Positions 664 through 44,571 of a stretch of 64,000 nucleotides of DNA are shown here, one piece after another; positions within the stretch are counted from its first letter, which is position 1; each line of letters starts with the position of its first letter. The notes below the pieces were generated by a model that saw nothing but the letters and a program-made list of their open reading frames with translations, was not told the origin of the DNA and searched no databases. The position numbers and the translations under genes are program-made. Source of the stretch: Mumia xiangluensis (GTDB taxonomy: Bacteria > Actinomycetota > Actinomycetes > Propionibacteriales > Nocardioidaceae); the NCBI RefSeq assembly GCF_010994095.1, contig NZ_WJYO01000001.1:1-64000 (forward strand), given 5' to 3'.

Positions 664-674
664 GTCAAGCCCCC
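1..674. repeat. 674-bp exact direct repeat, copy A (shared with 1625-2298)
   Basis: Bases 1-674 match 1625-2298 at a constant offset of 1,624; the first mismatch is at 675 versus 2299. The repeat may extend left of the window. It covers the first 221 codons of two adjacent GT2 genes plus 11 bases upstream of their GTG starts, including the TGA that in this copy serves as the stop of the upstream gene. Confidence 0.95.
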
Positions 675-2287
675 ACCACGTCGACGCTCTGCTCCGGTCG
701 GGTCTCTGCACGCGTGCCCGAACGACCGTCGCGCAGCACGAGGACCAGTGCTCCCCTGGCGCCACGGCGCACCCGGGCACGCCGAAGCGCTCCCTTCGAC
801 CGCACGCGCGCGCGTCCCGCGAGTACGGCGTGCCCTGGCGGAAGCGGGACGGGCCGCACCGCACCGCGACCGATCAGCCGCGATCGCACGTAGAGCGTCC
901 ACCGCCCGGCGTCGAGCCGCTGCCCGAACGAGCCCTCTTGGGGATCGAGCGTGGCCTCGACGGTCGCCGTCTGCAGGATGTCGCCTGAACGAGGTGTCTC
1001 GACCACGCACCGTACGGTCGAGACCGGCCACTCGATCCCGGAGTCTCGCTCACGGATCGACAGCTCCGCCCAGCCCGCATCGGGCGAGCCGACCGCCAGC
1101 GCAGGCTCCGAGTACGCCGGCACGACGATCTCGGAGACCCCGTCCACGCCGGCGCTCGTCACCGTCCGGACCAGAGCGGGATCGGTCGTACGCAGGCGAG
1201 CCAGGACGACCAGCCGCAGCAGACCGTCGTCCCACGAGGCGTCGATCAGCTCGGCGTCGACGACCGTCGCGCGCGCCGCGCGCCGGATCGCGAAGAGGTC
1301 GCCGGCATCGCCGCGGCGGAGTGCGGAAACCTCCGCACGACGCCACACCGGCAGGTGGGGGTCGACTGACTCCGGGACAGAGCGGCGGACCAAGTCCGAG
1401 ACCGCGTCGAAGATCTCGGCCGCATCATCGGCCGGGATACGGTCCACGTTCGCGACGACGGCCCGCCCCATGGCCTGGGCTGCACCGACCGTCCGCAGCG
1501 CGGTGACCACGGCAGGGTCTGCGCCCGGACGGTCCACCGCGTCGACCGCGCGACGGTAGTGCTCCCAGTACGCCGCCTGGGTCACCGTCGCGGCCGAGTT
1601 GTTGGTGCCGTCGCGGCGATCGATCCAGCGGTAGCAAGGGTAGGACGCCAGCACCGACGCCACCGGCGCGCACGCGAACACCTGACCCATGAAGTGGTGA
1701 TCCTCCAACCGCACCCGACCCTCCAGGAACCGGATCCCGTGCTCCATCAGGAACGACCGCCGAAACAGCTTGTGCACCGTCCGCGACTGCATCACCCCGT
1801 CGGCAACCAGATCCGCACGCTCCACGTCACGCCGCGCCAACCCCCAGTACGGCGTCCCCCCACCGACCCGCACCACCTTGCCCGCCACCACGTCCGACCC
1901 GTTGCGATCAGCCATCGCGACCATCCGCTCCAACGCCTCCGGGAACAGCTCGTCGTCCTGATCGGAGAAGAACACATACTCACCCCGCGCCCGCTCCAAC
2001 CCCACGTTGCGCGGACGCCCCGGCCACCCCGAGTTCGCGATCGAGACCACCACCATGTTCGAACGCTCCGCCGCCCGCGCCCGCAACCACCCCAACGTCT
2101 CCCCATCACGAGACCCGTCGTCGACGAACACCAGCTCCACCGCACGCCGCCCCAACGACTGCGCATCCAACGACGCCAACAACGGCACGATGTTCTGCCC
2201 AGGCTCGAACACCGGCACCACCACCGACACCCGCGGACCACCCCACGGCAACAGCCGCCGTACCCACCCCGCCCGACCAACGACCAC
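665..2287 (-). CDS. Family 2 glycosyltransferase with beta-rich C-terminal extension
   Basis: A protein of about 540 residues. Residues 1-230 form a GT2 (GT-A) domain with VSVVVPVF, VFVDDGSRD and FFSDQDDE motifs and a later RLEDHHFMG motif of the sort found near the catalytic base. After about residue 320 it has a region rich in predicted beta strands, with an ASWDD motif and later LDAGRWTLYVR, resembling the accessory modules of the TagF-like proteins in this locus. The GTG at 2287 is chosen because an in-frame N-terminal extension would be long, arginine-rich and overlap the divergent promoter; a G-rich stretch lies just upstream. The gene is a mosaic: the first third uses TTG for leucine heavily and never CTC, while the sampled later part uses CTG. 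Probably adds a sugar to a wall polymer; substrate unknown. Confidence 0.8.
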   Translation of the reverse strand: MVVGRAGWVRRLLPWGGPRVSVVVPVFEPGQNIVPLLASLDAQSLGRRAVELVFVDDGSRDGETLGWLRARAAERSNMVVVSIANSGWPGRPRNVGLERARGEYVFFSDQDDELFPEALERMVAMADRNGSDVVAGKVVRVGGGTPYWGLARRDVERADLVADGVMQSRTVHKLFRRSFLMEHGIRFLEGRVRLEDHHFMGQVFACAPVASVLASYPCYRWIDRRDGTNNSAATVTQAAYWEHYRRAVDAVDRPGADPAVVTALRTVGAAQAMGRAVVANVDRIPADDAAEIFDAVSDLVRRSVPESVDPHLPVWRRAEVSALRRGDAGDLFAIRRAARATVVDAELIDASWDDGLLRLVVLARLRTTDPALVRTVTSAGVDGVSEIVVPAYSEPALAVGSPDAGWAELSIRERDSGIEWPVSTVRCVVETPRSGDILQTATVEATLDPQEGSFGQRLDAGRWTLYVRSRLIGRGAVRPVPLPPGHAVLAGRARVRSKGALRRARVRRGARGALVLVLRDGRSGTRAETRPEQSVDVVGA

Positions 2288-2298
2288 GTCAAGCCCCC
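1625..2298. repeat. 674-bp exact direct repeat, copy B (shared with 1-674)
   Basis: Identical to 1-674. Its last 95 bases (2204-2298) also lie inside the 8.7-kb tandem duplication and so appear a third time at 10945-11039. Confidence 0.95.
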
Positions 2299-2333
2299 GG
2301 CATGTCGACAAACCCGAGACGGAACGAGACTCA

Positions 2334-2342
2334 GGATAGACT
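2334..2342. promoter_or_regulatory. Overlapping divergent -10 elements
   Basis: In the 97-bp gap between the divergent GT2 gene and the TagF-like gene, AGGATAGACT carries TAGACT (2337-2342) for the rightward gene and, on the other strand, TATCCT (2339-2334) for the leftward gene. Leaders would be about 35 and 40 bases. No convincing -35 box is visible, so this is tentative. Confidence 0.4.
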
Positions 2343-2384
2343 CGCTCGCTACCGGCGGAGGGCTTCCGAGGAGGAGGCGGTCGC

Positions 2385-4793
2385 GTGAGATGGGTGCTCG
2401 AGCGATCGCGTGCGCGCTCCTGGGGCCTGAAGGGCCGTCGGACGCCGACCCCGTCTGCACCCCCTCCCACGTGGACTGCCGCCCTCCGATCAGCGTCGTG
2501 GTCACCCGACGGGTCCTTGACCATCGCGGGCTGGGTGTACGTCGGGGGCGTCGCCATGGAGTCCATCCCCACGTCGGCGCGGGTCTCGCTGACAGATCTT
2601 GCGACCGGCCGCACGATCGACGTGCGCACACAGAGCCGGCGTGACCCCGAGGTCAACCACGTCGCGGCCGACCCTGACCACGACTACGCCGCCGGCGCCT
2701 TCGCGGCCGAGCTGCCTGTGCCCGACGGCGCTCCCGGGACGGACTGGGACGTGCGCATCGCGCTCGGGACGGGCGCCCAGCGGTGGTCCGGCCCGCTGAC
2801 GACCCTCTTCCGACGTGCGTCGGCCGGCTGGATCCCCCGTCGGCTCCTCGACGACGGAGCACAGGTCGTGCCGACCTGGCTGCCGGACCGAGGACTTGTC
2901 CTCCGCCTCGTACGACGCCAGGTGACCGCCCGGTCCTCGTCGGTGTCGGAGGGGCGATGGACCATCGGCGCCACCATCACCGGGCGGCGCCCGGTCGCTG
3001 CGCAGCTGGTCGGGCCGGAAGGTGCCGTGCTCGACGGCGAGGTCGAGGACGGCGCCAAGGTGGAAGGAGGGTGGCGCGCCAGCCTCCGGTTTCCCCTCCC
3101 GGCCGCAGGAAGCGGTGTCTGGCAGCCTCACGTGGGCCTCGCCGGGGGAAGCCGCAGGCCCGTCCACTGGTCCGAGGAAGACGCGCCCGCACAGGCCGGG
3201 TCGTTGAGCATCGTGGTGACGCCGACCGGCAAGCTGGACGTCACCCACCCGGCCGACGAGGTCGTCGTCGACGAGGTCGAGGTCGTCCCCGGGGAGCTTC
3301 CGGAGCTGCTCCTGCGTGGCCGCGCGGCGGCCGGCTGCGAGACCTTCACGCTCGTCCTCAGCGGACCTCGCACCGACAGCACCGCGCACGTCTCGGTCAC
3401 AGACGGACGGTTCGCCGCCAACGTCCCCCTCTTCGCGGCGTCACAGCTCTGGTCGACCGACGCGCTTCCGCTGCCGATCGGAACGTACCGCGCCGACGCG
3501 GTGCGTCCCGACGGCGTCCAGGTCCTCGTCCGGCTCACCGAAGAGGCCGTCAGACGCGCCTGTGGCCGGTGGACGTCCGCGCCTGCCGTGATGGTCCGTC
3601 CAGAGCGCGGCCCCCGCAACCGTCTTGAGGTCAGGCTGGCACCGCCGCGCGAGGCCGAGGAGTGGAGCGAGCTCGGTCAGCGCCGCGAGGATGCCGCGTA
3701 TCGCTCGCGGCACTACGCACCGGAGGATGCCGTGCTCTTCGAGAGCTTCCTCGGCAAGCGAGCAGCGTGCAACCCGCTGGCGATCCGCAACGAGGTGGCG
3801 CGGCGGCAGCCGGAGCTTCGACGCGTGTGGAGCGTGTTCGAGGCCTCTGTGCCCGTTCCCGAGGGCGACGAGAAGGTGCTGATCGGGACCCGGAGGTGGC
3901 GGGACGCCCGAGGGTCCGCCCGCTACATCGTGACCAACGACTGGCTCCGTCGTTTCGAGCACCGTCCGTTCCAGACGTTCGTCCAGACGTGGCACGGCAC
4001 ACCATTGAAGAAGCTCGCGCTCGACCGCCGCCCGCGCGGCCTGGACGCGGACTACCAACAGCTCGTGCGCGACGAGGTCTCGCGATGGGACCTTCTCGTG
4101 AGCCAGAGCCCGTTCATGACCCATGCGCTGCGCAGTGCATACAGGTACGAAGGGCCTGTCCTCGAGGTGGGCTACCCGCGCAACGACATCCTGAGCGGCC
4201 CACCCGACCCTGAGCGGGTCCGTCGCGTCCGCGAGCGCCTGGGACTCTCGGCTGAGTCCCCGGTGATCCTGTACGCGCCGACCTGGCGGGAGGACAACGA
4301 GCGTCGCACACCGCTGCCACCCGATCCTCAGACGCTCGTCGCGCGCCTGGGCTCGTCGATGACGTTGCTGGTCCGCGGCCACGCAGAGAACATCCGCCAC
4401 GACCGACGGATCCACGGGCCGAACGTGCTCGACGTGACGTTGTACCCCGACATCTCCGAACTGTTCCTCGTCACCGACGTGCTGGTCACCGACTACTCGT
4501 CGCTGATGTTCGACTTCGCGGTGACAGGGCGTCCCATCGTCTTCTTCGTCCCGGATCTCGACGAGTACCAGAACGTCAGCCGCGGCCTGTACCTCGTGCT
4601 CGAGGACATCGCACCAGGCCCCGTGCTGCACACCAGCGAGGACGTCGCAGAAGCCCTGTCGGACCTGCAGTCGTTGCGAGCGGAGCACCGCAGCGCCTAC
4701 GCCGCCTGGCGCGAGCAGTTCGTTCCCTTTGATGACGGTGGCGCGACCGCCCGCGTGGTCGATGCCGTGTGGCCGGGCTCCGTCACATCGTGA
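2385..4793 (+). CDS. CDP-glycerol glycerophosphotransferase family protein (TagF-like), copy 1
   Basis: An 802-residue cytoplasmic or membrane-associated enzyme. The C-terminal part (about 440-795) is a CDP-glycerol:poly(glycerophosphate) transferase domain (PF04464 type): QTWHGTPLKK from residue 534, GYPRND near 595, YAPTWR near 625 and TDYSS at 702-706. In the family the His and Asp of these motifs are needed to transfer glycerol phosphate in teichoic acid synthesis. Residues 1-430 are not catalytic: a basic N-terminus, then beta-rich modules with LTIAGWVYVGG (45-55) and LPLPIGTYRAD (361-371) that recur in other proteins here. GTG 2385 is supported by a GAGGAGGAGG ribosome site six to seven bases upstream. 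The stop overlaps the start of the next gene (GTGA), so the two are coupled. Actual substrate (CDP-glycerol, CDP-ribitol or other) is unknown. Confidence 0.85.
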   Translation: MRWVLERSRARSWGLKGRRTPTPSAPPPTWTAALRSASWSPDGSLTIAGWVYVGGVAMESIPTSARVSLTDLATGRTIDVRTQSRRDPEVNHVAADPDHDYAAGAFAAELPVPDGAPGTDWDVRIALGTGAQRWSGPLTTLFRRASAGWIPRRLLDDGAQVVPTWLPDRGLVLRLVRRQVTARSSSVSEGRWTIGATITGRRPVAAQLVGPEGAVLDGEVEDGAKVEGGWRASLRFPLPAAGSGVWQPHVGLAGGSRRPVHWSEEDAPAQAGSLSIVVTPTGKLDVTHPADEVVVDEVEVVPGELPELLLRGRAAAGCETFTLVLSGPRTDSTAHVSVTDGRFAANVPLFAASQLWSTDALPLPIGTYRADAVRPDGVQVLVRLTEEAVRRACGRWTSAPAVMVRPERGPRNRLEVRLAPPREAEEWSELGQRREDAAYRSRHYAPEDAVLFESFLGKRAACNPLAIRNEVARRQPELRRVWSVFEASVPVPEGDEKVLIGTRRWRDARGSARYIVTNDWLRRFEHRPFQTFVQTWHGTPLKKLALDRRPRGLDADYQQLVRDEVSRWDLLVSQSPFMTHALRSAYRYEGPVLEVGYPRNDILSGPPDPERVRRVRERLGLSAESPVILYAPTWREDNERRTPLPPDPQTLVARLGSSMTLLVRGHAENIRHDRRIHGPNVLDVTLYPDISELFLVTDVLVTDYSSLMFDFAVTGRPIVFFVPDLDEYQNVSRGLYLVLEDIAPGPVLHTSEDVAEALSDLQSLRAEHRSAYAAWREQFVPFDDGGATARVVDAVWPGSVTS

Positions 4794-7700
4794 GCGGCAT
4801 CGTCCTCGGCCGTCGGCGGGGCGGCCCGACCCGGTCTCCGGAGAGTGCGTTGAGGCTCCGGCTGACCGGCGACCACCTGTGCGTCGAAGTGACCCTCGCT
4901 GATCGCTCGCGGATCGAGGGATTGCTGCTGCGACACCGCGACACCGGGCGCGAGACGACGGTCGTCCCTGTCCGGGAGGAACGGGGAGACGGCACCGTCG
5001 GCTTCGACATCGACATCTCCGCCGCGGTCCGGGCGGACCCCTCGTGCGAGTGGATCGACCTGTGGATCAAGGTCTCCGGCGAGGATGACCCTCGTCGTCT
5101 CGGCCGGTTCGCGTCGACCGATCGCGGCGGGGCCGTCTCACCGACAGAGGTCGACGGGCTGACCGCGACCGTTCACATGACGCACAAAGGCAACGTCAGC
5201 ATCCGCGTACAGGCCGAGCGCTCCCGTGAGGTGGCGCTGTGGACCCGCGAGATCTCCCTGCGCCACGGCCGGATCGCCTTCGCTACCGACGTCGTCACGC
5301 ACAACGTCCGCGTGGTCTCGGCCGTCCTGGCGGTGATCTCGCGTGAGAGCGGGGACGCCACGCGGCTCTCCGTGGGCATCCGGCCGCTGGAAGAGGACAC
5401 ACGTCGCCTCCACGGCCTGCTCCGCTACCGCGTCGACGCAGACTTCGACGTGGGTGTCCTTGCTCGGGCCGGGGAGCACGACAGCGACATCTACGACCTC
5501 GCTCTGCTCCTCACGCTCGAGGGCTTCGACGAAACCGTCGAGCGAGGGATCCGCATACCGCCGTACCGGGTAAGACGCCGTCTGCGCGCGGTCGAGGTGT
5601 CCGCCGGTGACACAGGCCACCTCGTCACTCCCTACTTCAGCTTCAAAGCACAGCGGCTCTGCCTGAGGGTCGAGCAGTTCTCGAGTGCCGACCTCGAGTT
5701 CATGCGCCGCGTGCTACGGCTCGGCTGGGCGTTCGCCCTCGTCCGCCCGTTCAGCAGGATCTGGCTGATCGGGGAGCTCCCGTACAAGGCGCAGGACACC
5801 GGCTTCCACTTCTTCCGGTGGATCCGCACGAGCCACCCCCGTCGACGCGCGTACTACGTCATCGAGCGTGACTCCCCTGAGCGTGCGAACGTCGAGCCGT
5901 ACGGGAACGTCGTCCTGCACCGCTCTCGCCGTCACATCCTCTACTCGTTGCTCGCGTCGCGGCTTGTCGGTTCGCACCACGCCGAGTACCTGCTCGCCTC
6001 GCGCAGCCCTCGCTTCGTACGGTGGTCGCGCGGAGTGCGTGTGTTCCTGCAGCACGGGGTGATGGGCACGAAGAACATGACCGGCAACTACGGCCGCCGT
6101 GCGTCGACGGACTTCCGGACCGACCTGTTCCTGGTCAGCTCCGAGCGCGAGCGCGAGATGGTGGTCGATGACTTCGAGTTCTTCCCCGGCCAGGTGCGAG
6201 TCACCGGTCTCTCGCGCTTCGACGCGCTACTCGCCGACGACGTGGACGTCGAGCGCGCCCTGTTGATCATCCCGACCTGGCGTGACTGGCTGAGAGCGCG
6301 TGACTTCGGCGAGAGTGAGTTCTTCGAGCAGTGGAACGGGCTGCTGACCTCGGCGAGGTTCCAGGAGATGATCCGCCGCCACGGGCTGGCCGTCTGGTTC
6401 ATCCTCCACCCGAACATGCGCGAGTACGCAGAGCGCTTCGACGCCCCCGGCGTCGTCGTCCTGCAGCAGGGCGACGCGCCGGTCCAGGACCTCCTCAAAC
6501 GCAGCGCCGTCATGCTCACCGACTACTCCAGCGTGGGGTTCGACTTCAGCTTCCTCCACCGTCCGGTGGTCTACTTCCAGTTCGACCGCGCGCGGTTCCT
6601 CGGTGCCCGTGGCTCACACCTCGACCTCGACGCGCACCTTCCGGGCGAGATCGCCTTCTCGCACGACGAGGCGCTCGATCGGCTGGACGAGGTGCTCAAA
6701 GCAGGGATGACGATCTCCGAGCGCAACCGCGCGCGGGCCGACGCGTTCCTCGAGCGCCGCGACCGCGACAACAACGAGCGGATCTACGAGGTGGTTCGCC
6801 GCGCCTGGTCCCCACTGACGCCGGTGCGGCGTCTGCGCAGCGCCTCCCCGTCACGTGCTCTCTTCAACCGGTTCCGCAAGAGCCGCTTCTACTTCCCCGC
6901 CATGCGCGTGCTCTACCGCCTGGCGACGCTGCTGCCGCGACGCGACCTCGTCGTCTTCGAGAGCGCGAACGGGAAGCAGTACGGCGACAGTCCTCGCTAC
7001 CTCTACGAGAAGCTGCTCGAGCGTGGAACCGAGAGCACTCTCGTGTGGGTCAACGACTCGACCGTCCGGCTCCCCGACCCGAGCACGCGCAAGGTACGGC
7101 GGTTGAGTCCGCGATACTTCTGGCTGCTGGGTCGGGCGAGCCACTGGGTCAACAACCAGAACTTTCCGCACTACCTGCGCCCGGCCCACGGGACCCGCTA
7201 CGTGCAGACCTGGCACGGCACACCGCTGAAGAAGATGCAGCACGACCTGGAGCAGGTCCACGGTCGCCGCGACGACTACCTCGAGCGCGTCACGAAGATG
7301 ACCGGCTACTGGGACGACCTCGTCTCCCCGAGCCCGTACGCCACGGCGGCCTTCCGTAGCGCTTTCCAGTACAAGGGTCGCGTTCTGGAGTGCGGCTATC
7401 CCCGCAACGACGTGCTGCACTGGCCGGACGCCGACGAGCGAGCGGACCTCGTCCGCCGCAGGCTCGGGATCCCGGCCGAGAAGCGCGTCGTCCTCTACGC
7501 GCCGACCTTCCGAGACGACCGTACGAGCGGCGGGGGGTTCGCGGCGCAGGCCGAGCTCGACCTCGCGCGCCTGCACGACCGGCTCGGCGACTCCGTCGTC
7601 GTTCTCCTGCGGATGCACTCGGTCGTTCGTGGGCGGGTCACGGTCCCCGAGGACCTTCGCCGATTCGCCATCGATGCGTCGCGCTACCCGGACACGCAGG

Positions 7701-8035
7701 AGCTCCTGCTGGTCGCCGACGTGCTGGTCACGGACTACTCATCGGTCATGTTCGACTTCGTAACGCTGGACCGGCCGATCGTGTTCTACACCTACGACCT
7801 CGACCACTACCGCGACGACCTCCGCGGTTTCTACTTCCCGTTCGAGGAGCAGGCACCCGGGCCGCTCGTCCGCACGAGCGACGAGGTGGCCGACGCACTG
7901 TCCGAGGCGCTCTCCGGGAGCGAGGGCTACGCCCGCGCCCGTGCTGACTTCCGTGCCCGGTTCGCCCCGCTCGACGACGGCTCGGCCTCCGAGCGGGTCC
8001 TGGACGCCGTGTTCGGGCGATCCGACGACCGCTGA
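4790..8035 (+). CDS. Tandem double-domain TagF-like polymerase, copy 1
   Basis: A protein of about 1,081 residues with two glycerophosphotransferase-type domains. The first (about 310-660) has FLQHGVMGTKN (His 422), TGLSRFD, IIPTWRDW and TDYSSVGFDF (Asp 578). The second (about 690-1,075) has YVQTWHGTPLKK (His 809), GYPRND, YAPTFRDD and TDYSSVMFDF (Asp 982). The two represent different sub-types of the family, so the protein might carry out priming and polymerisation, or alternate two units. The first 300 residues are beta-rich with no known catalytic motif. GTG 4790 overlaps the upstream TGA (GTGA); an in-frame GTG at 4767-4769 upstream is less likely. Expected to extend a polyol-phosphate polymer at the inner membrane face. 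Confidence 0.85.
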   Translation: MSGIVLGRRRGGPTRSPESALRLRLTGDHLCVEVTLADRSRIEGLLLRHRDTGRETTVVPVREERGDGTVGFDIDISAAVRADPSCEWIDLWIKVSGEDDPRRLGRFASTDRGGAVSPTEVDGLTATVHMTHKGNVSIRVQAERSREVALWTREISLRHGRIAFATDVVTHNVRVVSAVLAVISRESGDATRLSVGIRPLEEDTRRLHGLLRYRVDADFDVGVLARAGEHDSDIYDLALLLTLEGFDETVERGIRIPPYRVRRRLRAVEVSAGDTGHLVTPYFSFKAQRLCLRVEQFSSADLEFMRRVLRLGWAFALVRPFSRIWLIGELPYKAQDTGFHFFRWIRTSHPRRRAYYVIERDSPERANVEPYGNVVLHRSRRHILYSLLASRLVGSHHAEYLLASRSPRFVRWSRGVRVFLQHGVMGTKNMTGNYGRRASTDFRTDLFLVSSEREREMVVDDFEFFPGQVRVTGLSRFDALLADDVDVERALLIIPTWRDWLRARDFGESEFFEQWNGLLTSARFQEMIRRHGLAVWFILHPNMREYAERFDAPGVVVLQQGDAPVQDLLKRSAVMLTDYSSVGFDFSFLHRPVVYFQFDRARFLGARGSHLDLDAHLPGEIAFSHDEALDRLDEVLKAGMTISERNRARADAFLERRDRDNNERIYEVVRRAWSPLTPVRRLRSASPSRALFNRFRKSRFYFPAMRVLYRLATLLPRRDLVVFESANGKQYGDSPRYLYEKLLERGTESTLVWVNDSTVRLPDPSTRKVRRLSPRYFWLLGRASHWVNNQNFPHYLRPAHGTRYVQTWHGTPLKKMQHDLEQVHGRRDDYLERVTKMTGYWDDLVSPSPYATAAFRSAFQYKGRVLECGYPRNDVLHWPDADERADLVRRRLGIPAEKRVVLYAPTFRDDRTSGGGFAAQAELDLARLHDRLGDSVVVLLRMHSVVRGRVTVPEDLRRFAIDASRYPDTQELLLVADVLVTDYSSVMFDFVTLDRPIVFYTYDLDHYRDDLRGFYFPFEEQAPGPLVRTSDEVADALSEALSGSEGYARARADFRARFAPLDDGSASERVLDAVFGRSDDR

Positions 8036-8061
8036 TGGGCGGGTGCCCTTCTGCGGTCCAG

Positions 8062-9741: not shown

Positions 9742-9786
9742 GTGTCCTCCTCGTCGCCGACCCGCGAGACTCATCCGGGCCTCGGA

Positions 9787-9792
9787 TAGCAT
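9787..9792 (+). promoter_or_regulatory. Candidate -10 box for the GT2-GT4 gene
   Basis: TAGCAT lies in the 108-bp gap between the divergent methyltransferase and glycosyltransferase starts. It would give a leader of about 50 bases before the GTG at 9850, which has a GGGGGA ribosome site. The same element recurs at 18528-18533 in the second copy. Confidence 0.35.
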
Positions 9793-10944
9793 TGCACGGG
9801 CCCCGCCGCGGGCCTGACCGGCCCTGCCTCGAAAGCCCCCGGGGGAACTGTGACCCAGCACGACCGAAGCCATCAGCCGACGGTGACCGTCATCGTCCCG
9901 AGCTACCTCGGCGCCAAGCTCCTGCCGACCAGCCTCGGCTCGCTGGCGCGGCAGACCCTCGCACCACGAGAGTTCGAGGTGGTCGTTGTCCTCAACGGTC
10001 CCGAAGACGAGTCACGGACGGCGATCGACGATGTTCGCACCGCGTTCCCTGAGCTCCGCCTACGCATCGTGGAGGCCTCGACCGCAGGTGCAGGCAACGC
10101 GCGCAACCTCGGCCTGGACGCGGCCGCAGGGCGGTCCGTGACGTTCGTCGATGCTGACGACGAGGTCACGCCGGGCTACCTGAAGGCGCTGCTCGCGCAC
10201 GCCGGGCTGGGGATCGTCCCCGTCGCCTCGGTCGCCGACGTCACGGACGGCGGCGCGGCGCCGACCTTCGACAACTACCTGTCGAACCGCCTCCTGGCCC
10301 GGGCCGGCGAGGTGACCGACCCGACGCAGATCCCGTCCTCCCTCGGTTTCGTGGCCGGCAAGATCATCCCGACCGCGGTGGCACGTGCCAGCAGGTTCGA
10401 CACGACCCTGCGCAGCGGGGAGGACGTGGTCTACTGGTTCGACGTGTTCGAAGCCGCCCCGTTCCGGATCCGGCCCGTCGCCCTCGACTCCGACGGTGTC
10501 TACCTCCGTCACGTGGTGGCGAACTCGATCTCCCGGCAGGCGCGCTCCTATGACTTCTCGGTGACTCAGCGGCTCGACGTCATCGAACGGCTCTGGTCCC
10601 GACCGGCCGAGGAACCCCGAAGCCGCAAGCTCCGTGCGTCCTTCATCTCCGGGCAGGTCTCGCTCGTGAATGCCCATCTACGTGTCGAACCGGACGACCA
10701 CACGAGGGTCGTGGAGGACATCCGGTCCCGCGGGCTCGAGGACGCGATCCCGTGGCGCCGCCTCAACGCGGGCATTGCGCGCGACCTCGGGATCCTCTAC
10801 TCGTTCCTCCCCTACGCCGACACCAGTGCACTCGTCGCCGCGCGTCGCATCCGCGATCGCGGTGTCGTCGTCGACGTCGTGTCCAACAAGATGGGAGCGG
10901 ACAAACCCACCGACTGGTCCGCAGGCGTCATCGCGCGCGAGAAC

Positions 10945-11028
10945 CTCGAACACCGGCACCACCACCGACACCCGCGGACCACCCCACGGCAACAGCCGCC
11001 GTACCCACCCCGCCCGACCAACGACCAC
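10945..11028 (-). pseudogene. 5' fragment of the GT2 gene at the duplication junction
   Basis: Identical to the first 28 codons of the gene at 665-2287, from GTG 11028 to the junction. It keeps the promoter and ribosome site of the original, so transcription leftwards into the antisense strand of the truncated glycosyltransferase is possible. The reading frame stays open beyond the junction to 10678 but encodes nothing recognisable. Confidence 0.85.
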
Positions 11029-11074
11029 GTCAAGCCCCCGGCATGTCGACAAACCCGAGACGGAACGAGACTCA

Positions 11075-11083
11075 GGATAGACT
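11075..11083. promoter_or_regulatory. Overlapping divergent -10 elements, copy 2
   Basis: Duplicate of the element at 2334-2342. Rightwards it would drive the second TagF-like gene. Leftwards it now drives only the 28-codon GT2 fragment and antisense RNA. Confidence 0.4.
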
Positions 11084-11125
11084 CGCTCGCTACCGGCGGA
11101 GGGCTTCCGAGGAGGAGGCGGTCGC

Positions 11126-13534
11126 GTGAGATGGGTGCTCGAGCGATCGCGTGCGCGCTCCTGGGGCCTGAAGGGCCGTCGGACGCCGACCCCGTCTGCA
11201 CCCCCTCCCACGTGGACTGCCGCCCTCCGATCAGCGTCGTGGTCACCCGACGGGTCCTTGACCATCGCGGGCTGGGTGTACGTCGGGGGCGTCGCCATGG
11301 AGTCCATCCCCACGTCGGCGCGGGTCTCGCTGACAGATCTTGCGACCGGCCGCACGATCGACGTGCGCACACAGAGCCGGCGTGACCCCGAGGTCAACCA
11401 CGTCGCGGCCGACCCTGACCACGACTACGCCGCCGGCGCCTTCGCGGCCGAGCTGCCTGTGCCCGACGGCGCTCCCGGGACGGACTGGGACGTGCGCATC
11501 GCGCTCGGGACGGGCGCCCAGCGGTGGTCCGGCCCGCTGACGACCCTCTTCCGACGTGCGTCGGCCGGCTGGATCCCCCGTCGGCTCCTCGACGACGGAG
11601 CACAGGTCGTGCCGACCTGGCTGCCGGACCGAGGACTTGTCCTCCGCCTCGTACGACGCCAGGTGACCGCCCGGTCCTCGTCGGTGTCGGAGGGGCGATG
11701 GACCATCGGCGCCACCATCACCGGGCGGCGCCCGGTCGCTGCGCAGCTGGTCGGGCCGGAAGGTGCCGTGCTCGACGGCGAGGTCGAGGACGGCGCCAAG
11801 GTGGAAGGAGGGTGGCGCGCCAGCCTCCGGTTTCCCCTCCCGGCCGCAGGAAGCGGTGTCTGGCAGCCTCACGTGGGCCTCGCCGGGGGAAGCCGCAGGC
11901 CCGTCCACTGGTCCGAGGAAGACGCGCCCGCACAGGCCGGGTCGTTGAGCATCGTGGTGACGCCGACCGGCAAGCTGGACGTCACCCACCCGGCCGACGA
12001 GGTCGTCGTCGACGAGGTCGAGGTCGTCCCCGGGGAGCTTCCGGAGCTGCTCCTGCGTGGCCGCGCGGCGGCCGGCTGCGAGACCTTCACGCTCGTCCTC
12101 AGCGGACCTCGCACCGACAGCACCGCGCACGTCTCGGTCACAGACGGACGGTTCGCCGCCAACGTCCCCCTCTTCGCGGCGTCACAGCTCTGGTCGACCG
12201 ACGCGCTTCCGCTGCCGATCGGAACGTACCGCGCCGACGCGGTGCGTCCCGACGGCGTCCAGGTCCTCGTCCGGCTCACCGAAGAGGCCGTCAGACGCGC
12301 CTGTGGCCGGTGGACGTCCGCGCCTGCCGTGATGGTCCGTCCAGAGCGCGGCCCCCGCAACCGTCTTGAGGTCAGGCTGGCACCGCCGCGCGAGGCCGAG
12401 GAGTGGAGCGAGCTCGGTCAGCGCCGCGAGGATGCCGCGTATCGCTCGCGGCACTACGCACCGGAGGATGCCGTGCTCTTCGAGAGCTTCCTCGGCAAGC
12501 GAGCAGCGTGCAACCCGCTGGCGATCCGCAACGAGGTGGCGCGGCGGCAGCCGGAGCTTCGACGCGTGTGGAGCGTGTTCGAGGCCTCTGTGCCCGTTCC
12601 CGAGGGCGACGAGAAGGTGCTGATCGGGACCCGGAGGTGGCGGGACGCCCGAGGGTCCGCCCGCTACATCGTGACCAACGACTGGCTCCGTCGTTTCGAG
12701 CACCGTCCGTTCCAGACGTTCGTCCAGACGTGGCACGGCACACCATTGAAGAAGCTCGCGCTCGACCGCCGCCCGCGCGGCCTGGACGCGGACTACCAAC
12801 AGCTCGTGCGCGACGAGGTCTCGCGATGGGACCTTCTCGTGAGCCAGAGCCCGTTCATGACCCATGCGCTGCGCAGTGCATACAGGTACGAAGGGCCTGT
12901 CCTCGAGGTGGGCTACCCGCGCAACGACATCCTGAGCGGCCCACCCGACCCTGAGCGGGTCCGTCGCGTCCGCGAGCGCCTGGGACTCTCGGCTGAGTCC
13001 CCGGTGATCCTGTACGCGCCGACCTGGCGGGAGGACAACGAGCGTCGCACACCGCTGCCACCCGATCCTCAGACGCTCGTCGCGCGCCTGGGCTCGTCGA
13101 TGACGTTGCTGGTCCGCGGCCACGCAGAGAACATCCGCCACGACCGACGGATCCACGGGCCGAACGTGCTCGACGTGACGTTGTACCCCGACATCTCCGA
13201 ACTGTTCCTCGTCACCGACGTGCTGGTCACCGACTACTCGTCGCTGATGTTCGACTTCGCGGTGACAGGGCGTCCCATCGTCTTCTTCGTCCCGGATCTC
13301 GACGAGTACCAGAACGTCAGCCGCGGCCTGTACCTCGTGCTCGAGGACATCGCACCAGGCCCCGTGCTGCACACCAGCGAGGACGTCGCAGAAGCCCTGT
13401 CGGACCTGCAGTCGTTGCGAGCGGAGCACCGCAGCGCCTACGCCGCCTGGCGCGAGCAGTTCGTTCCCTTTGATGACGGTGGCGCGACCGCCCGCGTGGT
13501 CGATGCCGTGTGGCCGGGCTCCGTCACATCGTGA
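11126..13534 (+). CDS. CDP-glycerol glycerophosphotransferase family protein (TagF-like), copy 2
   Basis: Same 802-residue protein as at 2385-4793, with the full promoter gap, ribosome site and start. Motifs QTWHGTPLKK, GYPRND, YAPTWR and TDYSS are all kept, so both copies should be functional and double the gene dose. It overlaps the next gene by four bases. Confidence 0.85.
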   Translation: MRWVLERSRARSWGLKGRRTPTPSAPPPTWTAALRSASWSPDGSLTIAGWVYVGGVAMESIPTSARVSLTDLATGRTIDVRTQSRRDPEVNHVAADPDHDYAAGAFAAELPVPDGAPGTDWDVRIALGTGAQRWSGPLTTLFRRASAGWIPRRLLDDGAQVVPTWLPDRGLVLRLVRRQVTARSSSVSEGRWTIGATITGRRPVAAQLVGPEGAVLDGEVEDGAKVEGGWRASLRFPLPAAGSGVWQPHVGLAGGSRRPVHWSEEDAPAQAGSLSIVVTPTGKLDVTHPADEVVVDEVEVVPGELPELLLRGRAAAGCETFTLVLSGPRTDSTAHVSVTDGRFAANVPLFAASQLWSTDALPLPIGTYRADAVRPDGVQVLVRLTEEAVRRACGRWTSAPAVMVRPERGPRNRLEVRLAPPREAEEWSELGQRREDAAYRSRHYAPEDAVLFESFLGKRAACNPLAIRNEVARRQPELRRVWSVFEASVPVPEGDEKVLIGTRRWRDARGSARYIVTNDWLRRFEHRPFQTFVQTWHGTPLKKLALDRRPRGLDADYQQLVRDEVSRWDLLVSQSPFMTHALRSAYRYEGPVLEVGYPRNDILSGPPDPERVRRVRERLGLSAESPVILYAPTWREDNERRTPLPPDPQTLVARLGSSMTLLVRGHAENIRHDRRIHGPNVLDVTLYPDISELFLVTDVLVTDYSSLMFDFAVTGRPIVFFVPDLDEYQNVSRGLYLVLEDIAPGPVLHTSEDVAEALSDLQSLRAEHRSAYAAWREQFVPFDDGGATARVVDAVWPGSVTS

Positions 13535-16500
13535 GCGGCATCGTCCTCGGCCGTCGGCGGGGCGGCCCGACCCGGTCTCCGGAGAGTGCGTTGAGGCTCC
13601 GGCTGACCGGCGACCACCTGTGCGTCGAAGTGACCCTCGCTGATCGCTCGCGGATCGAGGGATTGCTGCTGCGACACCGCGACACCGGGCGCGAGACGAC
13701 GGTCGTCCCTGTCCGGGAGGAACGGGGAGACGGCACCGTCGGCTTCGACATCGACATCTCCGCCGCGGTCCGGGCGGACCCCTCGTGCGAGTGGATCGAC
13801 CTGTGGATCAAGGTCTCCGGCGAGGATGACCCTCGTCGTCTCGGCCGGTTCGCGTCGACCGATCGCGGCGGGGCCGTCTCACCGACAGAGGTCGACGGGC
13901 TGACCGCGACCGTTCACATGACGCACAAAGGCAACGTCAGCATCCGCGTACAGGCCGAGCGCTCCCGTGAGGTGGCGCTGTGGACCCGCGAGATCTCCCT
14001 GCGCCACGGCCGGATCGCCTTCGCTACCGACGTCGTCACGCACAACGTCCGCGTGGTCTCGGCCGTCCTGGCGGTGATCTCGCGTGAGAGCGGGGACGCC
14101 ACGCGGCTCTCCGTGGGCATCCGGCCGCTGGAAGAGGACACACGTCGCCTCCACGGCCTGCTCCGCTACCGCGTCGACGCAGACTTCGACGTGGGTGTCC
14201 TTGCTCGGGCCGGGGAGCACGACAGCGACATCTACGACCTCGCTCTGCTCCTCACGCTCGAGGGCTTCGACGAAACCGTCGAGCGAGGGATCCGCATACC
14301 GCCGTACCGGGTAAGACGCCGTCTGCGCGCGGTCGAGGTGTCCGCCGGTGACACAGGCCACCTCGTCACTCCCTACTTCAGCTTCAAAGCACAGCGGCTC
14401 TGCCTGAGGGTCGAGCAGTTCTCGAGTGCCGACCTCGAGTTCATGCGCCGCGTGCTACGGCTCGGCTGGGCGTTCGCCCTCGTCCGCCCGTTCAGCAGGA
14501 TCTGGCTGATCGGGGAGCTCCCGTACAAGGCGCAGGACACCGGCTTCCACTTCTTCCGGTGGATCCGCACGAGCCACCCCCGTCGACGCGCGTACTACGT
14601 CATCGAGCGTGACTCCCCTGAGCGTGCGAACGTCGAGCCGTACGGGAACGTCGTCCTGCACCGCTCTCGCCGTCACATCCTCTACTCGTTGCTCGCGTCG
14701 CGGCTTGTCGGTTCGCACCACGCCGAGTACCTGCTCGCCTCGCGCAGCCCTCGCTTCGTACGGTGGTCGCGCGGAGTGCGTGTGTTCCTGCAGCACGGGG
14801 TGATGGGCACGAAGAACATGACCGGCAACTACGGCCGCCGTGCGTCGACGGACTTCCGGACCGACCTGTTCCTGGTCAGCTCCGAGCGCGAGCGCGAGAT
14901 GGTGGTCGATGACTTCGAGTTCTTCCCCGGCCAGGTGCGAGTCACCGGTCTCTCGCGCTTCGACGCGCTACTCGCCGACGACGTGGACGTCGAGCGCGCC
15001 CTGTTGATCATCCCGACCTGGCGTGACTGGCTGAGAGCGCGTGACTTCGGCGAGAGTGAGTTCTTCGAGCAGTGGAACGGGCTGCTGACCTCGGCGAGGT
15101 TCCAGGAGATGATCCGCCGCCACGGGCTGGCCGTCTGGTTCATCCTCCACCCGAACATGCGCGAGTACGCAGAGCGCTTCGACGCCCCCGGCGTCGTCGT
15201 CCTGCAGCAGGGCGACGCGCCGGTCCAGGACCTCCTCAAACGCAGCGCCGTCATGCTCACCGACTACTCCAGCGTGGGGTTCGACTTCAGCTTCCTCCAC
15301 CGTCCGGTGGTCTACTTCCAGTTCGACCGCGCGCGGTTCCTCGGTGCCCGTGGCTCACACCTCGACCTCGACGCGCACCTTCCGGGCGAGATCGCCTTCT
15401 CGCACGACGAGGCGCTCGATCGGCTGGACGAGGTGCTCAAAGCAGGGATGACGATCTCCGAGCGCAACCGCGCGCGGGCCGACGCGTTCCTCGAGCGCCG
15501 CGACCGCGACAACAACGAGCGGATCTACGAGGTGGTTCGCCGCGCCTGGTCCCCACTGACGCCGGTGCGGCGTCTGCGCAGCGCCTCCCCGTCACGTGCT
15601 CTCTTCAACCGGTTCCGCAAGAGCCGCTTCTACTTCCCCGCCATGCGCGTGCTCTACCGCCTGGCGACGCTGCTGCCGCGACGCGACCTCGTCGTCTTCG
15701 AGAGCGCGAACGGGAAGCAGTACGGCGACAGTCCTCGCTACCTCTACGAGAAGCTGCTCGAGCGTGGAACCGAGAGCACTCTCGTGTGGGTCAACGACTC
15801 GACCGTCCGGCTCCCCGACCCGAGCACGCGCAAGGTACGGCGGTTGAGTCCGCGATACTTCTGGCTGCTGGGTCGGGCGAGCCACTGGGTCAACAACCAG
15901 AACTTTCCGCACTACCTGCGCCCGGCCCACGGGACCCGCTACGTGCAGACCTGGCACGGCACACCGCTGAAGAAGATGCAGCACGACCTGGAGCAGGTCC
16001 ACGGTCGCCGCGACGACTACCTCGAGCGCGTCACGAAGATGACCGGCTACTGGGACGACCTCGTCTCCCCGAGCCCGTACGCCACGGCGGCCTTCCGTAG
16101 CGCTTTCCAGTACAAGGGTCGCGTTCTGGAGTGCGGCTATCCCCGCAACGACGTGCTGCACTGGCCGGACGCCGACGAGCGAGCGGACCTCGTCCGCCGC
16201 AGGCTCGGGATCCCGGCCGAGAAGCGCGTCGTCCTCTACGCGCCGACCTTCCGAGACGACCGTACGAGCGGCGGGGGGTTCGCGGCGCAGGCCGAGCTCG
16301 ACCTCGCGCGCCTGCACGACCGGCTCGGCGACTCCGTCGTCGTTCTCCTGCGGATGCACTCGGTCGTTCGTGGGCGGGTCACGGTCCCCGAGGACCTTCG
16401 CCGATTCGCCATCGATGCGTCGCGCTACCCGGACACGCAGGAGCTCCTGCTGGTCGCCGACGTGCTGGTCACGGACTACTCATCGGTCATGTTCGACTTC

Positions 16501-16776
16501 GTAACGCTGGACCGGCCGATCGTGTTCTACACCTACGACCTCGACCACTACCGCGACGACCTCCGCGGTTTCTACTTCCCGTTCGAGGAGCAGGCACCCG
16601 GGCCGCTCGTCCGCACGAGCGACGAGGTGGCCGACGCACTGTCCGAGGCGCTCTCCGGGAGCGAGGGCTACGCCCGCGCCCGTGCTGACTTCCGTGCCCG
16701 GTTCGCCCCGCTCGACGACGGCTCGGCCTCCGAGCGGGTCCTGGACGCCGTGTTCGGGCGATCCGACGACCGCTGA
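13531..16776 (+). CDS. Tandem double-domain TagF-like polymerase, copy 2
   Basis: Same protein as at 4790-8035 (about 1,081 residues, two glycerophosphotransferase-type domains, all catalytic motifs present), with the GTGA overlap to the upstream gene preserved. Nothing distinguishes it from copy 1. Confidence 0.85.
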   Translation: MSGIVLGRRRGGPTRSPESALRLRLTGDHLCVEVTLADRSRIEGLLLRHRDTGRETTVVPVREERGDGTVGFDIDISAAVRADPSCEWIDLWIKVSGEDDPRRLGRFASTDRGGAVSPTEVDGLTATVHMTHKGNVSIRVQAERSREVALWTREISLRHGRIAFATDVVTHNVRVVSAVLAVISRESGDATRLSVGIRPLEEDTRRLHGLLRYRVDADFDVGVLARAGEHDSDIYDLALLLTLEGFDETVERGIRIPPYRVRRRLRAVEVSAGDTGHLVTPYFSFKAQRLCLRVEQFSSADLEFMRRVLRLGWAFALVRPFSRIWLIGELPYKAQDTGFHFFRWIRTSHPRRRAYYVIERDSPERANVEPYGNVVLHRSRRHILYSLLASRLVGSHHAEYLLASRSPRFVRWSRGVRVFLQHGVMGTKNMTGNYGRRASTDFRTDLFLVSSEREREMVVDDFEFFPGQVRVTGLSRFDALLADDVDVERALLIIPTWRDWLRARDFGESEFFEQWNGLLTSARFQEMIRRHGLAVWFILHPNMREYAERFDAPGVVVLQQGDAPVQDLLKRSAVMLTDYSSVGFDFSFLHRPVVYFQFDRARFLGARGSHLDLDAHLPGEIAFSHDEALDRLDEVLKAGMTISERNRARADAFLERRDRDNNERIYEVVRRAWSPLTPVRRLRSASPSRALFNRFRKSRFYFPAMRVLYRLATLLPRRDLVVFESANGKQYGDSPRYLYEKLLERGTESTLVWVNDSTVRLPDPSTRKVRRLSPRYFWLLGRASHWVNNQNFPHYLRPAHGTRYVQTWHGTPLKKMQHDLEQVHGRRDDYLERVTKMTGYWDDLVSPSPYATAAFRSAFQYKGRVLECGYPRNDVLHWPDADERADLVRRRLGIPAEKRVVLYAPTFRDDRTSGGGFAAQAELDLARLHDRLGDSVVVLLRMHSVVRGRVTVPEDLRRFAIDASRYPDTQELLLVADVLVTDYSSVMFDFVTLDRPIVFYTYDLDHYRDDLRGFYFPFEEQAPGPLVRTSDEVADALSEALSGSEGYARARADFRARFAPLDDGSASERVLDAVFGRSDDR

Positions 16777-16802
16777 TGGGCGGGTGCCCTTCTGCGGTCC
16801 AG

Positions 16803-18482
16803 TCAGCCTCGCCGAAAGATCGTCGCTCGCTTCTGCAGGCGGAGGTCCTCGCGCGAGAACCCCGGCAGGAGCTCCTCCCACATGCGAGCGACCTCCTGCT
16901 CGTCGTTGCGAATCATGTCGTCGAGGACGACCGACACCCGGTCGGCGAACCGGTCCCGCATCATCGGCACCGCCGGGAAACGGGCGTGCACTCCGGTCGC
17001 GGCCGGCGGGCCGTCGACGAGGAGCAGTCCGACATCGGAGAGAGTCTCGAGCGCCGCGGGGTCGTACCAACGGCCGCGGTAGCCGGCCACATCGACCTCG
17101 GTCAGGGGAGCGTCCCGGACCTCGGCAACGTCGCCGAGGCCATGGCGAGCGAGGACGGCTCGCGTCTGCTCCCCGAAACCTTCGTGGTGCTCGAGTGCCA
17201 CGACCTTGCAGTCGAGACCGAAATGGCGGATGGCGAGGCCGAACCAGAGCGTCGAGACACCACTTCCGCACTCCACGATGAGCGACGGCCGGCGCGAGAG
17301 CAGCTCGTCGACGACTACTTCCACCAGATCCGGCGAGGCCGCCCATCCACCCATGGCGGGAACCCTGCCCTCGACAGGGAGCAGAGAGAACAGGTGGATG
17401 GCCGACTGGATCTGGGCGAGCTGAGCGGAGTTCTCGACGGTCCGCCTGCTGACATCCCTGTTCAAGCCCGTCTCGAGTGCCCGGACGGCCGTGGCGGTAC
17501 GAGACTGCCCCACCTCGAGGCGTCGCACCGAGACCTGGAGCTCCTGCCACTCCTCGGCATGCCTGGTCCGTTCGGACTCGAGGTCCTCCGTGAGCTCGGC
17601 GTGCCGCTCTGCCAACATCTCGAGCGCCTTCCGAACGGCATGACGTTGACCCTGCGCGACGGACGCAGCGCGTCGCACTGCCCACAGGACAAGTGCGAGG
17701 GAGGCGACAGCGCCGACGAATGCACAGGCAGCAACGATCCCCGCGCCGATGCCGCCGGCCGCCGCGAGCCAGCCCACCGCAACCGCGACGACGACGAAGG
17801 CCGCAGCACCGGCAACGGCGACGACCGGGCGCCCTCCCAGTCGGCGCACCATCGCCGAGGACGCACGCGAGACGCGCGCAACGCGGGATCGCTCTACCGC
17901 CTCGCGCCGGCGCTCGGCCTTCGCGCGGGCGGCCTTCTCGTTCTTGAGCCGCGCACGGACGCGCTGAGCACGCTCGCGCTGAGCAGCGAGCCGCTCGTTC
18001 TTCACCTCGAGACTGTTGCGCAGGTCGGCCACAACCGACCGCAGGCGCGTGACATCCTCACGCTCACGGCCCACTGCTCGCCGGGGATCATTCATCAGGA
18101 GGCGAGCCCACAGGTCGTCGACCTCGCCCGCCGTCCGCGTCGATCCCACCGACATGGCCACCACCGGCACGTCGCCGAGCCAACCCACGCCATCGACACC
18201 GAGCGGAGCGTACGAGCTCAGATCCCCGTCGAGCCGGCCGAGGTCCACGAAGAGCTGCAGCTGCGGCTCTTCGGCGACGCGCGCGACGGCGAGCCGTACG
18301 AGGTCGGCGGGAAGGCTCCCTGACAGAAGGAAGCCCGACACCACCCCGGCACTGCGGGGAAGCTCGCCGTCGGACACGACGACGTCGTCACAGCTGTCAC
18401 GGAGCTCACCCACGGTCGCCCCAGGCTGGGTCGAGACCACCACGAGCTGCCCTCGGACATGGATGTCGTACCTGCCGTCCAC
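16803..18482 (-). CDS. Membrane-tethered class I SAM-dependent methyltransferase, copy 2
   Basis: Same protein as at 8062-9741: coiled coil, two-helix membrane hairpin, second coiled coil, C-terminal SAM-binding domain with ECGSGVST. The start at 18482 keeps its GAGGAGG ribosome site. Confidence 0.75.
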   Translation of the reverse strand: MDGRYDIHVRGQLVVVSTQPGATVGELRDSCDDVVVSDGELPRSAGVVSGFLLSGSLPADLVRLAVARVAEEPQLQLFVDLGRLDGDLSSYAPLGVDGVGWLGDVPVVAMSVGSTRTAGEVDDLWARLLMNDPRRAVGREREDVTRLRSVVADLRNSLEVKNERLAAQRERAQRVRARLKNEKAARAKAERRREAVERSRVARVSRASSAMVRRLGGRPVVAVAGAAAFVVVAVAVGWLAAAGGIGAGIVAACAFVGAVASLALVLWAVRRAASVAQGQRHAVRKALEMLAERHAELTEDLESERTRHAEEWQELQVSVRRLEVGQSRTATAVRALETGLNRDVSRRTVENSAQLAQIQSAIHLFSLLPVEGRVPAMGGWAASPDLVEVVVDELLSRRPSLIVECGSGVSTLWFGLAIRHFGLDCKVVALEHHEGFGEQTRAVLARHGLGDVAEVRDAPLTEVDVAGYRGRWYDPAALETLSDVGLLLVDGPPAATGVHARFPAVPMMRDRFADRVSVVLDDMIRNDEQEVARMWEELLPGFSREDLRLQKRATIFRRG

Positions 18483-18590
18483 GTGTCCTCCTCGTCGCCG
18501 ACCCGCGAGACTCATCCGGGCCTCGGATAGCATTGCACGGGCCCCGCCGCGGGCCTGACCGGCCCTGCCTCGAAAGCCCCCGGGGGAACT

Positions 18591-20714
18591 GTGACCCAGC
18601 ACGACCGAAGCCATCAGCCGACGGTGACCGTCATCGTCCCGAGCTACCTCGGCGCCAAGCTCCTGCCGACCAGCCTCGGCTCGCTGGCGCGGCAGACCCT
18701 CGCACCACGAGAGTTCGAGGTGGTCGTTGTCCTCAACGGTCCCGAAGACGAGTCACGGACGGCGATCGACGATGTTCGCACCGCGTTCCCTGAGCTCCGC
18801 CTACGCATCGTGGAGGCCTCGACCGCAGGTGCAGGCAACGCGCGCAACCTCGGCCTGGACGCGGCCGCAGGGCGGTCCGTGACGTTCGTCGATGCTGACG
18901 ACGAGGTCACGCCGGGCTACCTGAAGGCGCTGCTCGCGCACGCCGGGCTGGGGATCGTCCCCGTCGCCTCGGTCGCCGACGTCACGGACGGCGGCGCGGC
19001 GCCGACCTTCGACAACTACCTGTCGAACCGCCTCCTGGCCCGGGCCGGCGAGGTGACCGACCCGACGCAGATCCCGTCCTCCCTCGGTTTCGTGGCCGGC
19101 AAGATCATCCCGACCGCGGTGGCACGTGCCAGCAGGTTCGACACGACCCTGCGCAGCGGGGAGGACGTGGTCTACTGGTTCGACGTGTTCGAAGCCGCCC
19201 CGTTCCGGATCCGGCCCGTCGCCCTCGACTCCGACGGTGTCTACCTCCGTCACGTGGTGGCGAACTCGATCTCCCGGCAGGCGCGCTCCTATGACTTCTC
19301 GGTGACTCAGCGGCTCGACGTCATCGAACGGCTCTGGTCCCGACCGGCCGAGGAACCCCGAAGCCGCAAGCTCCGTGCGTCCTTCATCTCCGGGCAGGTC
19401 TCGCTCGTGAATGCCCATCTACGTGTCGAACCGGACGACCACACGAGGGTCGTGGAGGACATCCGGTCCCGCGGGCTCGAGGACGCGATCCCGTGGCGCC
19501 GCCTCAACGCGGGCATTGCGCGCGACCTCGGGATCCTCTACTCGTTCCTCCCCTACGCCGACACCAGTGCACTCGTCGCCGCGCGTCGCATCCGCGATCG
19601 CGGTGTCGTCGTCGACGTCGTGTCCAACAAGATGGGAGCGGACAAACCCACCGACTGGTCCGCAGGCGTCATCGCGCGCGAGAACCTCGACAGGACTTTC
19701 GAGGTCGACGCGCGTACCGCGGCCTTCGAGTGGGGCCCGTTGAAGACGTTCACCCGCCGTGCGCTGGCCAAGGTGGCCGAGTGGGAGGACGAGAAGGGCC
19801 TCTACCGGAGCGTCTACAGCAGGACGATGTGGCCGGGGTCCAACCTCGTCGCCGCCCTGCTGAAGCTCCGCCGACCGGAGATCCGCTGGATCGCGGAGTT
19901 CTCCGACCCCCAGCTCTTCAACGCGTACGGGCAGCGTCGCGTCGGTCAAGCGAGCACCGACTCCCTGTGGAAGGAGCTTGCCGCCGGGCTGGCATCGGCA
20001 GGCGTGGACGCGCCCGCTGACCGCAACATCCCCCATCTCGTGGAGCTCCTGGCCTACGCGCTCGCGGACGAGATCGTCTTCACCAATCAGCACCAACGCA
20101 CGTTCATGCTCGACTACCTTCCCGAGCAGCAGCTGGTCGAGCGCGTTCTGGAACGCTCACGGGTCTCGCACCACCCGACGCTCCCCGAGTCCTTCTACCA
20201 CCGCGTCGACGGTGAGTACCCGCTCGAGCCGGGTTTGCTCAACATGGCCTACTTCGGCGCCTTCTACGCCACGCGTGGCCTTACTGAGGTCGTCGAGGCG
20301 CTGAAGGCGCTGACGCCTGCCGAACGGACGAAGGTTCGCCTGCACGTGTTCACGTCGGATCCCGCGACCCTGTCACAGGAGCTCGAGGCACACGGTCTGA
20401 CGGACGTCGTCACTGCAAACCCGTACGTCTCCTACTTCGCATTCCTCGAGCTGACCACCCGCATGGACGTCCTTCTCGTCAACGACGCCCGGACTCGCGA
20501 CCACTACGACGTCAATCCGTTCCTGCCATCGAAGTGGTCCGACTACGCAGGCAGTGGCAGCGACGTCTGGGCCGTCGTCGAGGAAGGCAGCATCTTGTCG
20601 ACGATGCCGACGGCCTACCGGTCGCCTCTCGGCGATCCCGGGGCCGCCGTCGCCGCGGTGCGCCGGATGCTCGCAGATCGCGGTCTCGCGGACGCGCCGG
20701 ACCTCACTCGTTGA
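18591..20714 (+). CDS. Two-domain glycosyltransferase (GT2 plus GT4-like), full length
   Basis: A 707-residue protein starting at a GTG with GGGGGA in front. Residues 10-300 are a GT2 domain: TVIVPSYLGAKLL, VVVLNGPED, GAGNARNLG and VDADDEV. From about residue 340 a second Rossmann-like part begins (VVVDVVSNKMGADKP), with WIAEFSDPQ, an EIVFTNQHQ strand, FGAFYATRGL, and a C-terminal DVLLVNDA segment; this looks like a GT-B/GT4-type fold of the sort seen in actinobacterial wall-polymer loci. I infer two successive sugar transfers by one polypeptide. Its 3' end overlaps the convergent gene by 11 bases. It is the intact parent of the truncated copy at 9850. Confidence 0.75.
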   Translation: MTQHDRSHQPTVTVIVPSYLGAKLLPTSLGSLARQTLAPREFEVVVVLNGPEDESRTAIDDVRTAFPELRLRIVEASTAGAGNARNLGLDAAAGRSVTFVDADDEVTPGYLKALLAHAGLGIVPVASVADVTDGGAAPTFDNYLSNRLLARAGEVTDPTQIPSSLGFVAGKIIPTAVARASRFDTTLRSGEDVVYWFDVFEAAPFRIRPVALDSDGVYLRHVVANSISRQARSYDFSVTQRLDVIERLWSRPAEEPRSRKLRASFISGQVSLVNAHLRVEPDDHTRVVEDIRSRGLEDAIPWRRLNAGIARDLGILYSFLPYADTSALVAARRIRDRGVVVDVVSNKMGADKPTDWSAGVIARENLDRTFEVDARTAAFEWGPLKTFTRRALAKVAEWEDEKGLYRSVYSRTMWPGSNLVAALLKLRRPEIRWIAEFSDPQLFNAYGQRRVGQASTDSLWKELAAGLASAGVDAPADRNIPHLVELLAYALADEIVFTNQHQRTFMLDYLPEQQLVERVLERSRVSHHPTLPESFYHRVDGEYPLEPGLLNMAYFGAFYATRGLTEVVEALKALTPAERTKVRLHVFTSDPATLSQELEAHGLTDVVTANPYVSYFAFLELTTRMDVLLVNDARTRDHYDVNPFLPSKWSDYAGSGSDVWAVVEEGSILSTMPTAYRSPLGDPGAAVAAVRRMLADRGLADAPDLTR

Positions 20715-44557: not shown

Positions 44558-44571
44558 ACGGCGGAGACGGC

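Follow-up and report, generated by a model that had tools for sequence, protein, structure and literature searches.

The repeat and its genes

The assembly GCF_010994095.1 of Mumia xiangluensis (G000 below; 4,622,342 bases in nine contigs) opens with what looks, from its gene families, like a wall-polymer cluster, in which a unit of 8741 base pairs (bp) is written twice in direct tandem. The window analysed here is the first 64 kb of contig C1 (1,314,123 bp), beginning at C1 base 1, and positions without a contig name refer to it. At an offset of 8741 the window holds an identical run of 8746 bases (2204..10949 equals 10945..19690, base for base); at offsets of 8735-8740 and 8742-8747 identical runs are at most 11 bases long. 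The first-pass annotation had described an exact duplication of three complete genes whose junction shares CTCGA with both ends, and this description holds in full: the copies are identical, the same five bases stand at all three edges, and a TagF-like gene, a double TagF-like gene and a methyltransferase gene with hydrophobic windows lie entirely inside the unit (Table 1).

The junction reads ...GAGAAC-CTCGA-ACACC..., with the shared bases between hyphens, and differs from both outer edges, as at a real tandem duplication. The 249-bp stretch that spans it occurs once in G000, and its two halves are also found separately. Homology of at least 5 bases at two random breakpoints in the window had a frequency of 0.0105 (200,000 draws); the sharing of CTCGA is mildly above chance, as expected of microhomology duplications and of chimeras alike.

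The two-domain TagF-like protein also matches TarS_C1 (PF18674, E 9.4e-12), and hydropathy places three adjoining hydrophobic windows in the methyltransferase-domain protein. Both unit edges fall within family-2 glycosyltransferase genes, the left one in the 5' part of the gene B frame, and both of these genes keep an intact outer copy. A Pfam search matched no mobile-element family (transposase, integrase or replication gene) among the genes of the unit, which belong instead to polymer, glycosyltransferase and methyltransferase families. Megablast against plasmid and phage records, a near-identity mode that would miss distant relatives, returned one 65-bp plasmid match and nothing else.

Table 1. 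Features of the repeat, its edges and the surrounding cluster (positions in the window; aa, amino acids; ORF, open reading frame)
Feature	Position	Strand	Remarks
Exact direct repeat	1..674		Repeats 1625-2298, in two paralogous glycosyltransferase genes; its first k-mer is the start of C1
Family-2 glycosyltransferase gene B (TarS_linker)	665..2656	-	Left unit edge (2204) inside; whole on the left
Unit copy 1 as written, 8741 bp	2204..10944	+	Identical to 10945-19685; also C8:66519-75259(-), one occurrence in C8
TagF-like CDP-glycerol glycerophosphotransferase, 802 aa	2385..4793; repeat 11126-13534	+	Pfam PF04464, one Glyphos_transf stretch, E 3.4e-91
Two-domain TagF-like protein, 1088 aa	4769..8035; repeat 13510-16776	+	PF04464, two Glyphos_transf stretches, E 5.1e-149
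Methyltransferase-domain protein, 603 aa	8062..9873; repeat 16803-18614	-	C-terminal Methyltransf_24, PF13578, E 6.4e-10
Junction fusion ORF, 511 aa	9850..11385	+	366 N-terminal aa of the family-2 glycosyltransferase that is intact at 18591-20714, then a 145-aa antisense tail
Junction edge, 249 bp	10823..11071	+	Links the final 127-mer of the unit to its first 127-mer across the CTCGA overlap
Unit copy 2 as written	10945..19685	+	No 128-mer absent from the single-copy form in C8, except those crossing the junction
Intact family-2 glycosyltransferase, 707 aa	18591-20714		Cut by the right unit edge
Glycosyltransferase family-2 + TagF-like domain protein, 866 aa	20704-23304
Glycosyltransferase family-2 + TagF-like domain protein, 1027 aa	34234-37317
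Third TagF-like protein	42227-44794

The same locus in a second contig

The whole unit occurs three times in G000, twice in C1 and once in C8. Over its full 77,462 bp, C8 is the reverse complement of C1:1-86,182, except that it holds a single unit where C1 has two; the two sequences show zero substitutions, and their only other difference is one extra 21-bp minisatellite unit in C8. On the left C1 and C8 share the identical end base. At its other end C8 stops precisely with the opening 127 bases of an exact 182-bp repeat of C1. This repeat is the exact core of a 350-bp direct repeat that is 98.3% identical (C1:85916-86265 and 86849-87198). C8 is wholly redundant with the start of C1 and adds about 77 kb to the genome size; some of the estimated contamination of 1.53% may be due to it.

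The 21-bp minisatellite (C1:67434 region) is in frame, near the C-terminal end of a 222-codon frame (C1:67387-68052, minus strand), and its differing unit number in C1 and C8 places two alleles in one assembly. This suggests that the reads held variants, or slippage, and a mixed sample is plausible.

The unit in the assembly graph

The contig ends reveal the kind of assembly. Seven pairs dovetail by exactly 127 bp and two pairs by 210 bp, and 16 of the 18 terminal 127-mers recur among the stretches compared, which are less than the whole genome. Contigs that overlap by exactly k are characteristic of a de Bruijn assembler, and a k of 127 fits SPAdes, whose usual largest value it is. Contig C9 (5,436 bp) consists of one 16S-23S-5S operon: five contig ends dovetail exactly onto it, and the terminal 127-mer of a sixth (C4e) lies within it. 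Several operons are thus represented by a single sequence, and a repeat of 5.4 kb went unbridged; an exact repeat of 8.7 kb is therefore unlikely to have been bridged. Taken from these marks, the reads were probably short. A long-read assembly, the first guess from an exact repeat of 8.7 kb, was rejected on the 127-bp ends and the collapsed ribosomal RNA (rRNA) operon.

A graph with 127-mers as vertices was rebuilt from C1:1-86,182 and C8, that is, from contigs and not from reads. In it the unit is a simple loop, with an entry vertex (2204-2330) that has two edges in and an exit vertex (10823-10949) that has two edges out; the 8746-bp unit is one edge, and the 249-bp back edge links its end to its start. 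The 128-mers of C1:1-86,182 without a match in C8 number 122 at the junction (starts 10823-10944) and 97 at the minisatellite, and the 118 that are private to C8 also lie at the minisatellite. Only the 122 junction 128-mers distinguish two copies from one, and the claim of a duplication hangs entirely on the 249-bp junction edge. Apart from the junction, the second copy brings in no new k-mer, so the identity of the copies is automatic, and for the same reason exact identity was dropped as a sign of recency.

A tandem repeat in a de Bruijn graph takes this simple-loop form, as described in PMC6052550, where simulations were run with SPAdes 3.11.0. According to Table 5 of that paper, which covers simulated motifs of 100-500 bp, the scaffold mode of SPAdes output two copies for arrays of three, four and five; of the 15 rows concerned, nine showed the false 2 at every one of the three insert sizes and the other six at the two larger ones.

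Relatives and surrounding genes

The search within the genus covered six genomes, one of them G000. Single-copy relatives, a comparison named in the first-pass annotation, are represented by one of the others, G002, a single contig with one copy of the module at 81% identity, the ancestral arrangement to be expected of a real tandem duplication. G002 is collinear with C1 through both outer edges, except for some 1.16 kb of additional sequence that separates its second gene from the third, and the two junction halves occur there only separately, 9.6 kb apart. None of the five genus genomes other than G000 showed the junction, and the four besides G002 gave only weak partial matches. The extra segment of G002 (G002:C1, about 4060047-4061208) lies between the TagF-like pair and the methyltransferase gene and is absent from G000; it holds a minus-strand frame of 378 codons with hydrophobic stretches, which by eye only resembles a membrane acyltransferase.

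The neighbouring family-2 glycosyltransferase genes at the left end of the window share an exact 674-bp stretch (1-674 and 1625-2298). G002 has both copies of this paralogue pair, each about 92% identical to the 674-bp stretch, and the pair may be kept alike by gene conversion.

A draw of 61 genomes from the family, with G000 and without G002, was searched for the two-domain TagF-like protein at a cut-off of E <=1e-100. The protein was found in 5 of 61, or 4 of 60 besides G000, and G051 is the only one of these four with two such proteins, which lie 2.3 Mb apart and are unlike (50% and 42% to the query). A wider contig scan, from which near records may be left out, gave 10 loci at 38-45% identity, one in Brevibacterium and the other nine in genera of Bacillales.

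Beyond the unit, the cluster continues with further TagF-like proteins (Table 1) and with genes for a UDP-N-acetylglucosamine (UDP-GlcNAc) 2-epimerase, a UDP-sugar dehydrogenase, nucleotidyltransferases and dTDP-rhamnose, with some housekeeping genes interspersed. The layout of the 866- and 1027-aa proteins recalls polymerases of glycosyl-polyol-phosphate polymers; PMC5974469 is on enzymes of this kind.

Origin of the second copy

We put at roughly 0.7 the probability that a de Bruijn assembler produced the repeat by writing a single graph loop two times, most likely with an ordinary tandem duplication, possibly a partial one, behind it. A short-read assembly at k=127 would have gone round the loop two times for C1 and a single time for the redundant C8. 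The back edge would exist through reads crossing the junction, and the most likely source of that junction would be an ordinary tandem duplication at the 5-bp microhomology, in part or all of the culture. A graph edge requires reads, and C8 passes without a break through both outer edges, so two dead ends are unlikely to have been joined here. The assembly does not reveal the copy number (subclonal, two, or more) or its frequency. An origin by homologous recombination between long repeats was rejected, since the unit edges share 5 bp only; the 685-bp repeat at 1 and 1625, exact over 674 bp, overlaps the left edge of the unit, not the right.

The first-pass annotation had taken perfect identity to mean that the duplication was very recent, actively maintained or an assembly error. 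The last of these survives in part, in that the second copy as written would be the work of the assembler (twice in C1, once in C8). Perfect identity itself dates nothing and shows no maintenance; that a duplication arose recently, and is carried by all cells or by some, is still likely.

Several observations weigh against a loop whose count was set by the program. The read origin of the junction is a deduction, and the assembler is called SPAdes-like on account of its k of 127. The terminal 127-mers of the C5 start and the C7 start do not recur in the stretches compared. The other loop in C1, formed by the repeat at 1 and 1625, was also walked twice, correctly judging by G002. On the simulated arrays of PMC6052550, unitig-mode SPAdes gave 2 for the five true two-copy rows and 0 for the 15 with larger arrays, and with the real data of Table 4 its scaffolds restored 8 of 21 repeats, each at the expected number (about 2), and wrote 0 for the other 13, with no false 2 in that table. 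Given Table 4, the 2 may be right at this locus; the motifs in that paper reach 612 bp, and carrying its results over to 8.7 kb is an extrapolation.

The correct walk of the other loop and the Table 4 record would also be consistent with a true two-copy tandem duplication fixed in all cells, with C8 as a redundant path. This is a special case that overlaps with the written-out loop, and we regard it as possible, at clearly less than even odds. The junction adjacency is present in C1, and a pure two-copy genome would yield the same graph, so that C8, once considered as proof of a single-copy allele, was dropped in that role. However, the collapsed rRNA operon shows a 5.4-kb repeat left unbridged, and the assembler also output the locus with one unit. 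That last observation, together with the single copy in G002 and the continuity of both outer edges, would suit a single-copy genome whose junction arose as a chimera in the library or as some other false edge, and a 249-bp back edge with a 5-bp overlap is the trace that chimeric reads would leave. De Bruijn-type assemblers discard thinly covered edges, however, and a single chimera would rarely gain enough cover to survive, which leaves this explanation rather unlikely.

A free 8.74-kb circle, or a fast-varying array, beside a single chromosomal copy would act as a copy-number switch of the polymerase module. A circle would yield the same junction k-mers, and the different minisatellite alleles of C1 and C8 suggest a mixed sample; but the genes of the unit include no replication or recombination gene, the megablast search gave no phage match and only the short plasmid match, and the first recombination step would have just 5 bp of homology. 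We consider such a switch very improbable. Somewhat less remote, though still improbable, is a mixed culture in which the module is present in one, two or more copies or as free circles, with C1 and C8 as real haplotypes phased with the minisatellite alleles; if so, the wall polymer would differ from cell to cell.

Two further proposals of the first-pass annotation, selection for more polymer synthesis and reversible copy-number change, gained no support: the edges offer five shared bases and no longer repeat to start the switching, and among the genus genomes searched the junction was seen in G000 only.

The written-out loop carries a caution for drafts of this kind: when a short-read draft from a de Bruijn assembler shows an exact tandem repeat of several kilobases, that repeat is a graph loop, so that perfect identity between its copies does not speak for recency or selection and the number of copies is guessed by the program. 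In this assembly about 86 kb (all of C8 plus one unit) is redundant or unproven and would make gene counts too high. A real duplication at this locus would be an ordinary microhomology event.

Comparison with known systems

A literature search on assembler behaviour, bacterial duplications and teichoic-acid duplication gave nothing on this locus among the matches listed, as judged by title and start of abstract, which is no proof of absence. The closest likeness in gene content is the tarIJL duplication of Staphylococcus aureus (PMC1458327), where a block of teichoic-acid synthesis genes is likewise present twice. The tarIJL copies, however, are highly similar yet partly diverged and occur in six of the six genomes analysed there, whereas at this locus both copies correspond to a single graph edge, and none of the other five genus genomes showed the junction.

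In graph form the locus matches the simple tandem-repeat loop of PMC6052550, with one two-in vertex, one two-out vertex, a unit edge and a back edge, although the motifs there reach 500 bp (Table 5) or 612 bp (Table 4) and the unit here is 8.7 kb. The duplication as written is not a resolved feature, and the event behind it is likely of a common kind. The review PMC11721125 describes amplifications of 7-13 kb in S. aureus evolved under a drug, with junctions showing microhomology or no homology. Those amplifications arose under drug selection, whereas no selection is known here; in its size within the 7-13 kb range, its direct orientation and the few bases shared at its junction, the unit of M. 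xiangluensis resembles these bacterial microhomology tandem duplications.

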